Below, piece after piece: positions 2-4,632 of a DNA stretch of 32,233 nt. This DNA comes from Bacteroidota bacterium (GTDB taxonomy: Bacteria > Bacteroidota > Bacteroidia > Chitinophagales > Saprospiraceae), in the NCBI GenBank assembly GCA_003648285.1, contig QMOR01000004.1, positions 1 to 32,233 on the forward strand, in the 5' to 3' direction. The notes under the pieces are model-generated. The model was not told the origin of the DNA. It did no database searches and saw only the letters and a program-made list of their open reading frames with translations. Every line of letters starts with the position of its first letter. The stretch's first letter is position 1. The position numbers and the translations under genes were made by a program.

Positions 2-733
2 CCTGTTATTACGATTGTACTGATCAAGTTGTGGGGCCCTATGCCAAGTGTTGCACTGGGACTGATCATGATAGCCTCGTGTCCGGGGGGGAATGTGTCA
101 AACTTTGCCGTGCACCTCGGAAAAGGCAATACCGCACTCTCCATCACATTGACATCTATTGTGACCCTCTTTGCGATCCTCATTACACCTTTAAGCTTTT
201 CGTTATGGTCCAGGCTTCTGCCGGAAACGCAAACGATACTCGCCAAAATCCAGGTAGATCATCTGAGCATGCTTCGCGTCATTGGATTGGTATTGCTGGT
301 ACCACTCATCGCGGGCATGTTGTTTAACAGACGGTTTGCGAAAATCACTGCCCGGATTAAAAGGCCGGTTCGCAGTATCTCTCTCGTCATGTTCGCTTCA
401 TTTATCTTCTTCGCTGTGTTTGCCAACCGCGTCAATATTGTAAAATACCTCCAACTCGTTTTTGCTCTTGTCATAGTGCACAATATTCTTGCTCTGGGCG
501 CCGGATACGCATTTGCCCGATTGAATCAACGATCTGTCAAAGACGCCAAGGCCATTTGTATGGAAACCGGTGTGCAGAATGCAGGATTGGGCCTCATCCT
601 CATCCTCAATTTTTTTGGGGAATATGGGGGCATGATGCTGGTCGCTGCCTTTTGGGGGGTATGGAATCTTATTGCGGCACTTACACTGGGATTATATTGG
701 AACTTCAGGAGTAAGTACACTGCCCGCGCATGA
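2..733 (+). CDS. Bile acid:sodium symporter family protein (C-terminal part, cut by window edge)
   Basis: The frame is open from the left edge, so the N-terminus lies outside the window; the TTG at 29 is internal, not a start. About 243 residues are visible. They are strongly hydrophobic and form roughly seven membrane segments. The stretch SCPGGNVSN followed by membrane helices, and the later ETGVQNAGLGLIL, match the two conserved crossover regions of the bile acid:sodium symporter (BASS/SBF) family, where Na+ is coordinated near ExGxQN. Family members move bile acids, pantoate, pyruvate or other organic anions with Na+ across the inner membrane; the substrate cannot be told from sequence alone. 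The C-terminus is short and basic (FRSKYTARA) and ends in TGA. The next gene begins about 95 bases downstream after a short repeat array. Confidence 0.87.
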   Translation, partial: PVITIVLIKLWGPMPSVALGLIMIASCPGGNVSNFAVHLGKGNTALSITLTSIVTLFAILITPLSFSLWSRLLPETQTILAKIQVDHLSMLRVIGLVLLVPLIAGMLFNRRFAKITARIKRPVRSISLVMFASFIFFAVFANRVNIVKYLQLVFALVIVHNILALGAGYAFARLNQRSVKDAKAICMETGVQNAGLGLILILNFFGEYGGMMLVAAFWGVWNLIAALTLGLYWNFRSKYTARA

Positions 734-751
734 CAGCTTTTAGTCATCTCT

Positions 752-820
752 AGCTCTGTGTACTTGAGCAGTTAGCACCAGTTCTGTTTACTTGAGTGGT
801 TATCTCCAGTTCTGTGTACT
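752..820. repeat. 28-bp direct repeat array (three copies, last one partial)
   Basis: Copies start at 752, 780 and 808 with an exact 28-base spacing. The conserved core is AGTTCTGTGTACTTGAG, with a few substitutions per copy; the third copy diverges after TGTACTT and runs into the start of the OmpA-like gene. There are no spacers, so this is a minisatellite and not a CRISPR. Each copy contains a TTG that could serve as a -33 element for the promoter-like box at 817-824. Confidence 0.85.
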
Positions 821-824
821 TTTG
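792..824 (+). promoter_or_regulatory. Possible Bacteroidota promoter of the OmpA-like gene
   Basis: TACTTTTG at 817-824 matches the Bacteroidota -7 consensus TAnnTTTG, and a TTG at 792-794 lies 22 bases upstream, as expected for -33. The -7 box ends only five bases before the ATG at 830, so the transcript would begin close to the start codon and be nearly leaderless. The box arises from the third, diverged copy of the 28-bp repeat; the other copies read TACTTGAG instead. Confidence 0.4.
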
Positions 825-829
825 AATCA

Positions 830-1414
830 ATGACAGCGTCGCCATCTAAACCAAAAAAAGATTCCAAACCGCTACCCTTATGGACAAAAATTCTCCCTTG
901 GGTTATTCTCATATCGACTGCTGTCGTATTGTTTTTCGTTGTGCAAAAAGGCTGCGTTTCGAATGTATTGCAAGCAGATCCAGATGAAACTGTAACGTCA
1001 GGCCAGTCAGATTATCCCAGCCAGGGAGTTCATGATATAACGGTTGCTTTGGAAAAGTCGAGTACCAAAGACAGGGAATTTGTACTGGACGGGATCACTT
1101 TTCTTCAGGCTTCCGGATTATTAGAGGCATCCTCGATGCCGGCACTCCAGCAATTATTGACGATGATGAAGAACCATCCTACGGCGCACATCAGGTTGGA
1201 AGGATATTGCCGAATGCAGGAAAACACAAAGGCAAACCTCAGGGTATCGCATCAGAGAGCTGCGGCTGTTGCAAATTTTCTCGAAGCAAAAGGTATTGAT
1301 GCCGGTAGGCTAAGAACTGTAGGGCGTGGAGATAGCCGTAGACGGACTACTGGTGCATCGTCGCAAAGTGCCTCCCAAAGCGCACTTCTTGGATTGTACG
1401 TTGAGCGCATTTAG
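830..1414 (+). CDS. Membrane-anchored OmpA-like (peptidoglycan-binding fold) protein
   Basis: A 194-residue protein with a lysine-rich cytoplasmic N-terminus (1-19), one membrane segment (about 20-38, WTKILPWVILISTAVVLFF) and a periplasmic OmpA/MotB-like C-terminal domain (about 83-194). The domain is recognised from the N-x-x-[LV]-S-x-x-RA pattern (NLRVSHQRA, 136-144) followed by FLEAKGIDAGRLRTVGRGD. Proteins of this form usually tie the cell envelope to peptidoglycan. The Asp that normally contacts diaminopimelate in the GHTD motif is replaced: the sequence reads EGYCR, with Arg128 at the aligned place, exactly 15 residues before the conserved Arg143. Binding may therefore be changed or lost. 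The start ATG is the only good one, since the frame is closed just upstream. Confidence 0.8.
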   Translation: MTASPSKPKKDSKPLPLWTKILPWVILISTAVVLFFVVQKGCVSNVLQADPDETVTSGQSDYPSQGVHDITVALEKSSTKDREFVLDGITFLQASGLLEASSMPALQQLLTMMKNHPTAHIRLEGYCRMQENTKANLRVSHQRAAAVANFLEAKGIDAGRLRTVGRGDSRRRTTGASSQSASQSALLGLYVERI

Positions 1415-1416
1415 GC

Positions 1417-1557
1417 AAATCATCATATAGGTCTGCGTCCCCAACAAATCATCATATAGGTCTGCGTCCCCAACAAATCATTATGTCGGTCTGCGTCCCC
1501 AACAAATCATCATGCAGGTCTGCGTCCCCAAATCATGTAGATCTGCGCCCCCAATAG
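1417..1557. repeat. 29-bp tandem repeat array carrying copies of the permease 3' end
   Basis: Copies begin at 1417, 1446, 1475, 1504 and 1530. The first two are identical over 29 bases, the third and fourth differ by a few, the fourth lacks three bases, and the fifth is shortened and lies inside the end of the permease gene. Read on the minus strand, every copy contains TGGGGACGCAGAC (or a close variant) followed by six bases and a stop. That is W-G-R-R-x-x-stop, the same as the true C-terminus YYWGRRST-stop. The array fills the whole gap between two convergent genes. Confidence 0.9.
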
Positions 1558-2846
1558 TAAATTGGTAATCCGAGGACGAGTAGTCCGATTCCCCACAATG
1601 CTTGTTCGGGTCGCCCAATTAGCATGTAAATGACAAACCATACTGAAATGCCAATAAAGATGAGTGGCACTACGGGATAACCAGGTGTCCTGAATGAGGA
1701 CCTGGCATCAGAATTACGACGAAAAACGAATACGGTCACTGCACCAATTATCATAAACACCCAGTCAATGAAAACGACGGAAGCGATCACTTTTTCAAAC
1801 GACCCCCAGATGAAGAGGATCACAATAGCCCAGCCAGACTGCAGAAGGATTGCATTGGCCGGGGTCCCGTATTTGGGATGAATCCTGGAAATCAAATCGA
1901 AAAATTTCCCATCCTGTGCCATAGCGAGATAAATCCTTGGCGCGGTCATCGTGAATATGCCGATGCTCCCGAAGGTGGAAATGAGAATCAGAACGGTTAC
2001 CAGATGGGACCCTGATGGCAGTACTGACTTCAGTGCATCTGAGGCTACAGCTTTTGATTGAGCCATCTCTTCTAATGGAAGCAGGCGCATATATGCCACG
2101 TTTGCCATCACATAAGTCACAGTCACAATCAGGGCTCCAAGGATCATGGCCCGTGGCACAACGTACTCGGCATTTCGGGTTTCCGCACTCAGAAACGAGG
2201 CGTGTTGCCACCCTCCAAATGACCAAAGCACACCAATCATGGCAAGCGCAAATAATCCGATACTGCTTGTATCTGAAGTCAATTCAGATGCCACTTCTAT
2301 TTCCGTAACTCCAGACACTGCATTTCCCAGTGCGATTCCCGCCACGACAATGATTAATATACCAATCAGCTTGAAGGATGTGAACAAGTTTGAGAATACC
2401 TCGCCCCATTTCACCCCAAAAACATTGATCACCGTAACTGAAGTAATTACCGATATACCAACGATGATCATCCCGGTCTCATCAAGTTCTATATATGCGC
2501 TCAGATACCTGGCAAAAGTGAGGCTTAGCGCGGCGATTGCACCCGAAGTAATCACTGTAAGCGTACTCCATCCATAGAGAAAAGCCCACAAATCGCCGAA
2601 AGCTTCACGGATATACACATATACACCACCCACTTTGGGGTAGAGCGCTCCCAGCTCCGCAAAAGTCAGTGAGCCTGTGACTGCCACTACACCACCAAGC
2701 AGCCATGCTGCAATGATCAGATCAGGACTTTTCAACAAAGCGGCGATATCACTCGGCACAACAAAAATCCCTGACCCTATGCATGAGCCAACGGCTACCA
2801 TCGTCAGACCATAAAAGCCGATTTTCTTTTTGAGGTGTCCTTTCAT
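1533..2846 (-). CDS. APC superfamily amino acid permease
   Basis: A 437-residue polytopic inner-membrane protein with about twelve hydrophobic helices. The N-terminal signature GSCIGSGIFVVPSDI is the unwound helix 1 substrate-binding motif (GSxIGxGIF) of the amino acid-polyamine-organocation family, and ELGALYPKVGGVYVYIREAFG follows as in the LAT/APA branch. It should import or exchange an amino acid; the substrate is not predictable. The length is normal for the family. The last codons (WGRRST, TGA at 1533-1535) lie inside the 29-bp repeat array, so the extreme C-terminus may itself be part of the repeat expansion. It is divergent from the protease gene at 2914 with only 67 bases between the two starts. 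Confidence 0.9.
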   Translation of the reverse strand: MKGHLKKKIGFYGLTMVAVGSCIGSGIFVVPSDIAALLKSPDLIIAAWLLGGVVAVTGSLTFAELGALYPKVGGVYVYIREAFGDLWAFLYGWSTLTVITSGAIAALSLTFARYLSAYIELDETGMIIVGISVITSVTVINVFGVKWGEVFSNLFTSFKLIGILIIVVAGIALGNAVSGVTEIEVASELTSDTSSIGLFALAMIGVLWSFGGWQHASFLSAETRNAEYVVPRAMILGALIVTVTYVMANVAYMRLLPLEEMAQSKAVASDALKSVLPSGSHLVTVLILISTFGSIGIFTMTAPRIYLAMAQDGKFFDLISRIHPKYGTPANAILLQSGWAIVILFIWGSFEKVIASVVFIDWVFMIIGAVTVFVFRRNSDARSSFRTPGYPVVPLIFIGISVWFVIYMLIGRPEQALWGIGLLVLGLPIYYWGRRST

Positions 2847-2857
2847 CTATAAATTTG
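2829..2857 (+). promoter_or_regulatory. Promoter of the aspartyl protease gene
   Basis: TAAATTTG at 2850-2857 fits the TAnnTTTG -7 box, with TTTG at 2829-2832 seventeen bases upstream. The -33 part overlaps the first codons of the divergent permease gene. The predicted transcription start near 2863 is upstream of both candidate start codons (2914 and 2935). Confidence 0.55.
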
Positions 2858-2913
2858 GATATTAGGTGCTATTCATAGTGTAGGGGGCCGAAAATCCTCT
2901 TTCTTTACCTTGA

Positions 2914-4176
2914 TTGAGAATAATACCGTGTAGTGTGTATGTAATATACCTCCTTCGATTCTTTTTTACGCTGGTCGCCGCATGTTATTTCTCATTTGCG
3001 GCGGCACAAAACATCACTTTCGATATCCTGAATGGCGAGGATAAGATTGAAGTTCCTTTTTCCTTTACGCATAATTTTATCATCGTTGAAGTGCGGCTAT
3101 TCGGGATGATGCCTATGAATTTCATCTTTGACACGGGAGCTGAAAACACAATACTTTTTACACGCCAGTTTGCAGATTTCCTTGATGTGAAATACGATCT
3201 GCGCATCCCTATCATAGGTTCGGACATGAGTAGAAAGCTCTATGCTCTAGTCGCGCGGTCTATAGAATTTGAGCTTGTTGGCTTACCCACGCAAAAGAAG
3301 GATATTCTTGTATTGGAAGAGAACCCATTCAACTTGTCTGAAATAACAGGTATTCAAATTCACGGGATTTTGGGTGGTAGCTTCTTTAAGAATTCGGTCA
3401 TTGAAATTGACTTCAGGAAGCAAAAACTCATTTTTCACAACCCTGTGACATTTAAGGCTCCGGGCAAGGCATATTCGAGGCTCAATGTAGAAATCCTTGG
3501 CAATAAACCATACCTCAAAGCTAAAAGCACTCTGATGAACGGGACAGAGGCCGATCTGAAATTACTGGTCGACACGGGAGCCGGGCTGCCATTGTTGCTG
3601 CACAACAACTCCCATCCAAGCCTGGTACTTCCAGAGCACTACATCCTTGGCAAACTGGGCTTTGGCCTGGGAGGATATATCGAGGGTTATGTCGGTCGTA
3701 CACGCAAGTTGAGTATTGAGGGGATTACATTTGACAACGTGCTCACAAGCTTTCAGGATATTAGTGAAGCGGTCACCATGGGTACGATATGGCCAAGAAA
3801 TGGTCTCATTGGAAATCAGCTTTTGCTTCGGTTTGATGTCATTATAGACTATGTAAAGGAATTGATGTACCTCAAACCAAGATTGCGCTATAATCGCAAG
3901 TTCAAAATGGACAAAAGCGGGCTGATCCTGGTTGCCATTGGTCCCAATCTGAACAATTTTATGGTACAGGGCACGATAGCGAACTCACCTGCGGCAAATG
4001 CCGGATTAGTGCGTGGAGACAGGCTTGTGAGAATCAATGGCTTGCCGGCGAGGGGATATTCACTTGATCAGATCCATCGTGTATTCCAAAAACGCACCGG
4101 CAAACAAATTAAATTGGTGATCTATCGAAACGGAGAAACAATCAAACTGCGATTTGACTTGAAGGATCTGATATAA
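2914..4176 (+). CDS. Exported retropepsin-like aspartyl protease with PDZ domain
   Basis: 420 residues from TTG 2914; GTG 2935 is an equally reasonable start and would give 413. The N-terminus is a signal peptide (IYLLRFFFTLVAACYFSFAAA, then QN), so the protein acts in the periplasm or at the surface. Two copies of the clan AA catalytic motif are present: FIFDTGAENT (Asp73) and LLVDTGAGLP (Asp220). They indicate two retropepsin-fold halves in one chain, enough to build a complete active site without dimerising. A PDZ domain follows (about 332-415: GTIANSPAANAGLVRGDRLV), as in other Bacteroidota proteins with Asp_protease_2 plus PDZ. The target peptide is unknown. The last codons (LKDLI-stop) form the first unit of a 30-bp repeat array downstream. 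Confidence 0.88.
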   Translation: MRIIPCSVYVIYLLRFFFTLVAACYFSFAAAQNITFDILNGEDKIEVPFSFTHNFIIVEVRLFGMMPMNFIFDTGAENTILFTRQFADFLDVKYDLRIPIIGSDMSRKLYALVARSIEFELVGLPTQKKDILVLEENPFNLSEITGIQIHGILGGSFFKNSVIEIDFRKQKLIFHNPVTFKAPGKAYSRLNVEILGNKPYLKAKSTLMNGTEADLKLLVDTGAGLPLLLHNNSHPSLVLPEHYILGKLGFGLGGYIEGYVGRTRKLSIEGITFDNVLTSFQDISEAVTMGTIWPRNGLIGNQLLLRFDVIIDYVKELMYLKPRLRYNRKFKMDKSGLILVAIGPNLNNFMVQGTIANSPAANAGLVRGDRLVRINGLPARGYSLDQIHRVFQKRTGKQIKLVIYRNGETIKLRFDLKDLI

Positions 4177-4256
4177 CGCACGTTAAACCTGAAGGAAATG
4201 TTATAGCTCACGTTAAACCTGAAGGAATTGATATTACTGACATTAAACCTAAAGCC
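4157..4256. repeat. 30-bp tandem repeat array starting inside the protease 3' end
   Basis: Units begin at 4157, 4187, 4217 and (partial) 4247. The shared core is ACCTGAAGGA, then a variable middle, then CACGTTAA. The first unit contains the protease stop TAA (4174-4176). Because 30 is a multiple of three, the frame is kept: unit 1 reads LKDLI-stop, unit 2 LKEML-stop (TAG), and unit 3 LKELI without a stop. The array therefore looks like duplicated 3' coding ends followed by drift. Confidence 0.88.
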
Positions 4257-4261
4257 ACCTC

Positions 4262-4291
4262 TTGACTAATAGCATAAAAAAGGTATCTTTG
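4262..4291 (+). promoter_or_regulatory. Promoter of rplU-rpmA
   Basis: TTGAC at 4262-4266 and TATCTTTG at 4284-4291 match the Bacteroidota -33 and -7 elements, with 19 bases between TTG and the -7 box. Transcription would start near 4297, about 27 bases ahead of the rplU ATG at 4324. Confidence 0.82.
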
Positions 4292-4323
4292 CGCTCCTAA
4301 TTTTTCGATCAAAGAGTATTGCT

Positions 4324-4632
4324 ATGTATGCAATTGTAAATATGAAAGGGCAGCAGATGAAAGTTGAGGAAGGAGCCGAGCTCTTTGTCAACCTCATTGA
4401 TGCCGAAAAAGGTGATCAAATTGCCTTTGACGAGGTCTTGTTGATTGATTCTGACGGCGACGTCAAGATTGGCACGCCTCACCTCAAAGCAAAGGTCAAT
4501 GCGACAGTGATTGAACACGCAAAAGGTGATAAGGTCATCGTCTTCAAAAAGAAGAGAAGAAAGGGCTACAAGGTGACCAATGGTCATCGTCAGCAATTCA
4601 CCAAGATCAAGATCGATTCGATAACAATCTAA
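4324..4632 (+). CDS. rplU: Large ribosomal subunit protein bL21
   Basis: 102 residues, the usual size. It begins [17 protein letters not shown], the conserved bL21 N-terminus (MYAIV-x-x-GGKQ-x-x-V), and ends with the basic segment [16 protein letters not shown] and FTKIKID typical of the rRNA-binding C-terminus. The third residue of the usual GGKQ motif is changed (KGQQ), as seen in many Bacteroidota. It binds 23S rRNA domain I in the 50S subunit. rpmA follows 11 bases after its stop, the standard rplU-rpmA operon. Confidence 0.97.

Follow-up and report, generated by a model that had tools for sequence, protein, structure and literature searches.

An array of tandem repeats lying between two convergent genes of a Saprospiraceae-like bacterium is very probably a neutral, locus-specific tandem repeat of the VNTR type, born by slippage from the 3' end of one of the two genes, which codes for an amino-acid permease. 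It looks like a footprint of mutation and not a device, because events of the same kind have affected further genes in the genome roughly as frequently as chance would allow.

Anatomy and origin of the array

Within the window (the whole stretch of DNA analysed, 32,233 nt), positions 1416–1554 consist of four tandem copies, of 29, 29, 29 and 27 nt, together with the permease gene's own 3' end (Table 1). The array fills the 118-nt gap between the stop of the OmpA-family gene (1414) and that of the permease (1533–1535). The initial annotation had rightly placed a tandem array at the permease 3' end, but its five units are four copies and the gene's own end, and they are unequal. TRF reports the array as 1416–1531, with a period of 29, 4.0 copies and 93% matches, and gives a second, overlapping row at 1509–1554 with a period of 23; the step from the permease stop to the next copy is indeed 23 nt, not 29. 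Five matches to a 15-mer of the unit occur in the window, against a maximum of 3 in 100 shuffles, and the permease gene end aligns locally with the downstream copy at a score of 29. In each copy the letters corresponding to the final six codons are retained, as is a stop (TGA or TAA). Read on the permease strand, the copies are TTGGGGACGCAGACC..CATGA, ..CATAA, ..TATGA and ..TATGA (in full TTGGGGACGCAGACCTGCATGA, TTGGGGACGCAGACCGACATAA and, twice, TTGGGGACGCAGACCTATATGA), and the gene end is TTGGGGGCGCAGATCTACATGA.

Table 1. Positions of the genes, array copies and repeats discussed in the text.
Feature	Sequence	Position	Strand	Basis
Copy 1 (OmpA side), 29 nt	window	1416–1444	-	sequence; TRF
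Copy 2, identical to copy 1	window	1445–1473	-	sequence; TRF
Copy 3, copied stop is TAA	window	1474–1502	-	sequence; TRF
Copy 4, 27 nt, adjoins gene end	window	1503–1529	-	sequence; TRF
Gene-end unit: permease stop and the six codons before it (WGRRST); likely source of the array	window	1530–1554	-	
Amino-acid permease, 437 aa	window	1533–2846	-	PF13520, 8e-50
OmpA-family protein, 194 aa, convergent neighbour	window	830–1414	+	PF00691, 2.5e-14
Second instance: period-30 array, first unit holds last codons and stop (TAA, 4174–4176) of aspartyl-protease/PDZ gene	window	4157–4254	+	
Aspartyl-protease/PDZ protein, 420 aa, gene at second instance	window	2914–4176	+	
Stop-crossing array, period 32, 4.1 copies, 96% matches; unit holds both stops of a convergent pair	L059	3431–3562		
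Stop-crossing array, last 11 codons copied	L126	2751–2824		
Stop-crossing array, own unit	L144	4359–4448		
Stop-crossing array, own unit	L132	2921–2978		
Stop-crossing array, own unit	L083	4833–4923		
Stop-crossing array, own unit	L146	7958–8034		
Stop-crossing array, own unit	L071	12354–12403		
Octamer array at a stop	L033	7590–7618		
Octamer array at a stop	L036	16717–16745		
Octamer array at a stop	L042	260–272		
Octamer array at a stop	L051	16554–16566		
Octamer array at a stop	L055	3324–3400		
Octamer array at a stop	L058	7522–7550		
Octamer array at a stop	L077	919–931		
Octamer array at a stop	L146	4016–4069		
Octamer array at a stop	L148	9270–9338		
Octamer array at a stop	L149	2578–2643		
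Octamer arrays at stops	L158	7210–7270, 7806–7866		
Dispersed sequence GCATTGTCCACCGAAGCTTTAGCGAAGG	L042	232–259		
Dispersed sequence GCATTGTCCACCGAAGCTTTAGCGAAGG	L046	17121–17179		
Dispersed sequence GCATTGTCCACCGAAGCTTTAGCGAAGG	L130	1134–1161		
Dispersed sequence GCATTGTCCACCGAAGCTTTAGCGAAGG	L142	4996–5023		
Dispersed sequence GCATTGTCCACCGAAGCTTTAGCGAAGG	L158	7875–7902		

The permease tail, IYYWGRRST, aligns at the usual end of 25 homologues, where a membrane helix gives way to a short cluster of basic residues (for example VYFGFRKKG and VYFFWKRKGSNP). Because these homologues share a similar basic tail and no such array was found with them, comparison of the sequences suggests that the gene end is likely the source and the array the copy. 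No second locus for the 29-bp unit was found in the 2.76-Mb assembly (from which about 27% of the genome is missing), either by alignment or by a pattern search allowing up to 3 mismatches, and the copies that are identical to each other lie at the OmpA side, distal to the permease. The gene-first direction, the locus-specific unit and these identical copies all favour the slippage duplication seeded in the coding end that the initial annotation had put forward.

If the copies are removed, only some 5 nt separate the convergent genes, and the duplicated segment would have carried CAA at each of its ends; this may have been the ancestral arrangement of the pair. A slip or short-homology duplication, plausibly between the two CAA triplets, would first have duplicated the final six codons together with the stop and the small gap. 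As such a unit would contain the stop codon, the permease would keep its complete frame and its stop, and the extra copy would be an untranslated spacer. Later slippage or unequal exchange would have added further copies, probably the latest of them at the OmpA end; the stops within the copies would then be hitch-hikers whose decay is still to come, and the same kind of event would have taken place at other genes of the genome with a different unit each time. A duplication that holds a stop should be tolerated, unlike most duplications inside coding sequence, because the first gene copy stays complete.

Arrays at other stop codons

An array of the same anatomy is found only 2 kb from the permease array, at the end of the aspartyl-protease/PDZ gene (81% matches by TRF). 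The sequence is TTGAAGGATCTGATATAA in the gene and CTGAAGGAAATGTTATAG in the first copy, and the stop is lost (TTA) in the next. A third array of the window (755–821, period 28, 2.4 copies) lies between a bile-acid:sodium symporter-family gene and the OmpA start, and crosses no stop and no start.

Across 1.41 Mb, about nine further arrays, the one near the permease included, cross a stop, each with its own gene-derived unit. The array on L059 is a clear-cut candidate for use in strain typing or in a slippage assay. Intrusion of the long-period arrays into coding sequence is less than one period in nearly all cases, as it must be if every unit is to include the stop. For each of 971 genes we also aligned the final 36 nt locally, and blindly, with the 150 nt that follow, and obtained 7 matches at a score of at least 28; five rounds of 971 mismatched gene/flank pairs gave none at this score, and no gene-end/flank matches were found among 148 and 259 genes of the relatives G025 and G031. 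The genome-wide search for arrays at stop codons proposed in the initial annotation, run on 1.41 Mb, does find that they recur, but with a different unit at each gene and at roughly the neutral expectation.

That expectation derives from a null of random duplications of the observed periods, kept if every open reading frame of at least 80 aa is preserved, with statistics from 1.41 of the 2.76 Mb. For 59 arrays the null, which is rough in that array extents are compared with unit placements and the reading frames are plain calls, predicts 9.5 stop-crossing, 6.8 start-crossing and 42.8 wholly intergenic arrays. TRF extents gave 14, 2 and 43, and moving the permease array by hand to the stop class gives 15, 2 and 42. 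The stop-crossing class is thus mildly high when octamer and heptamer arrays are included (15/59 against 9.5 expected, P = 0.04), which counts against the neutral reading, but this excess is gone once they are left out (10/54 against about 8.6, P = 0.36). Start-crossing arrays are rarer than expected (P = 0.03), consistent with selection acting on promoters and ribosome sites. The wholly intergenic arrays comprise 25 between co-directional, 10 between convergent and 6 between divergent genes, against about 25, 7 and 10 from intergenic base pairs.

Octamer arrays anchored at stops

In the 1.41-Mb sample, 17 noncoding arrays consist of the octamer GGAGTNNA, and their placement is far from random: 12/17 begin in the interval from -40 to +12 around a stop, where placement alone predicts 21.5% (P = 2e-5), and all 12 of these are on the coding strand of the gene concerned. 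Stop codons within the octamer may, however, themselves terminate the reading frames and in this way account for part of the bias. The octamer has 41 overlapping matches in this genome and is rare or absent in most relatives. The relative G023 has 207 matches to the reversed control pattern TGAGGANNTGAGGANNTGAGG, spelling TGAGGANN, a stop-containing octamer of its own, and its permease orthologue (L010 2795–2850) ends in a different octamer array (GAGGAATT) across its stop. This octamer pattern is more surprising than the permease array; it beats the placement null and may merit its own study.

Two further repeats were noted in this genome. The dispersed sequence GCATTGTCCACCGAAGCTTTAGCGAAGG often adjoins octamer arrays, and the two are perhaps parts of one larger REP-like intergenic element. 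A long degenerate heptamer/ATG-rich array (TGAATGA, about 27 copies; L036 8624–8802) lies in a doubtful 108-aa reading frame.

It is conceivable, if rather unlikely, that repeats in this lineage arise preferentially at gene 3' ends, by a process linked to the stop codon or the mRNA 3' end, with the long-period arrays as its mild expression and the strand-specific, stop-anchored octamers as its strong one.

Other explanations for the permease array

The position of the array between convergent genes raises the possibility of an RNA 3'-end or bidirectional termination/stability element under selection, with one signal per unit, as the initial annotation had suggested in part. RNA of the permease strand folds somewhat better than shuffles (z of -2.6 with flanks, a weak signal, and -1.95 for the array alone), which speaks against a purely neutral array. 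We found no intrinsic terminator (a GC-rich hairpin followed by a T run) at the array, and no match to the Rfam 15 covariance models up to an E value of 0.5 in the window at 700–4400. A single unit reaches only -3.7 kcal/mol on one strand and forms no fold on the other, and the sister stop-crossing arrays, with z from -2.4 to +2.1, have no common structure. We consider such a signal improbable.

Somewhat less probable still is the reverse order of events, in which a repeat array extended as far as the permease and gave the gene the 3' end it now has. Some octamer arrays do extend into coding sequence by several units (L158 7806–7858, and that on L010 in G023), but just one 23-nt unit lies inside the permease gene and the tail YYWGRRST matches those of the homologues in length and basic character; the C-terminal alignment with homologues thus disfavours an array-first origin.

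That selection maintains the copies as a store of backup stops, another proposal of the initial annotation, appears highly improbable. Stops are kept in 13/15 copies over seven genes, slightly more than neutrality predicts, but 9.9 are expected (P about 0.075, with array copies that are not independent), and over the same genes the stop triplet has diverged as much as the rest of the unit (15.6% against 14.7%). The copied stops moreover offer no backup in each unit, because neither the first step of 23 nor the period of 29 is a multiple of 3: a ribosome reading through the permease stop would travel 26 codons to the next in-frame stop, a longer way than the ~21 expected in random DNA. This frame argument leads us to reject backup stops in every copy. 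Equally improbable is a mobile or dispersed repeat inserting at gene 3' ends (MIRU- or REP-like), also considered in the initial annotation: many arrays of this genome lie at stops and the octamer is truly dispersed and stop-anchored, but each long-period array has its own unit, and we reject a mobile element for the 29-bp unit, which occupies a single locus of the assembly.

Relation to known repeats

As a probable product of neutral duplication, the array would belong to a known kind, the locus-specific intergenic tandem repeats of VNTR type, with unit copies head to tail at one locus. A search of the literature for VNTRs seeded at stop codons gave near matches only in papers on Borgs, on MIRU/fpg loci and on TAACTGA repeats. 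The tandem-repeat regions of Borgs have locus-specific units of about 20 nt that arose independently, intergenic unit lengths that are mostly not multiples of three, and flanking partial repeats suspected as seeds, like the 23-nt gene-end unit here (PMC9879509); the permease array likewise starts inside the 3' end of a reading frame with a partial repeat as possible seed. Borg units are, however, perfect and A-rich and the elements archaeal, whereas the units here are diverged (93% matches, and 81% in the second instance) and the host is bacterial.

At the MIRU-VNTR/ETR loci of Mycobacterium tuberculosis, similarly, intergenic arrays span hundreds of bp where other mycobacteria have a gap of only a few bp, as at rnc-fpg1 (VNTR3239), which has widened from a few bp to 358 bp, and copy number differs between isolates (PMC2734929). 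MIRU is one dispersed family of 40–100 bp found at many loci, in contrast to a 29-bp unit copied from a gene end and present at a single locus at up to 3 mismatches, and VNTR3239 begins 40 bp past the rnc stop and not within the gene. The TAACTGA heptamer repeats of Beggiatoaceae, Cyanobacteria and some Bacteroidetes are also short intergenic arrays, some of which overlap the stop of the upstream gene, but they share one heptamer and lie mostly upstream of starts (PMC4679880), unlike the gene-derived 29-nt unit; the octamer GGAGTNNA is closer to this class than is the permease array.

The genome is rich in repeats, with about 42 noncoding arrays per Mb (period 12–120), compared with 9.1 and 2.6 in the portions sampled (0.22 and 0.38 Mb) of two family relatives. 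Other relatives, G023 among them, are also array-rich where seen, around the permease locus only, and repeat load is therefore uneven across the family Saprospiraceae. For the seeding of intergenic VNTRs, a duplication that contains the stop spares the protein, making gene tails a natural nursery for tandem repeats, and this provides a simple, testable null model that any functional claim on stop-adjacent repeats has to beat.
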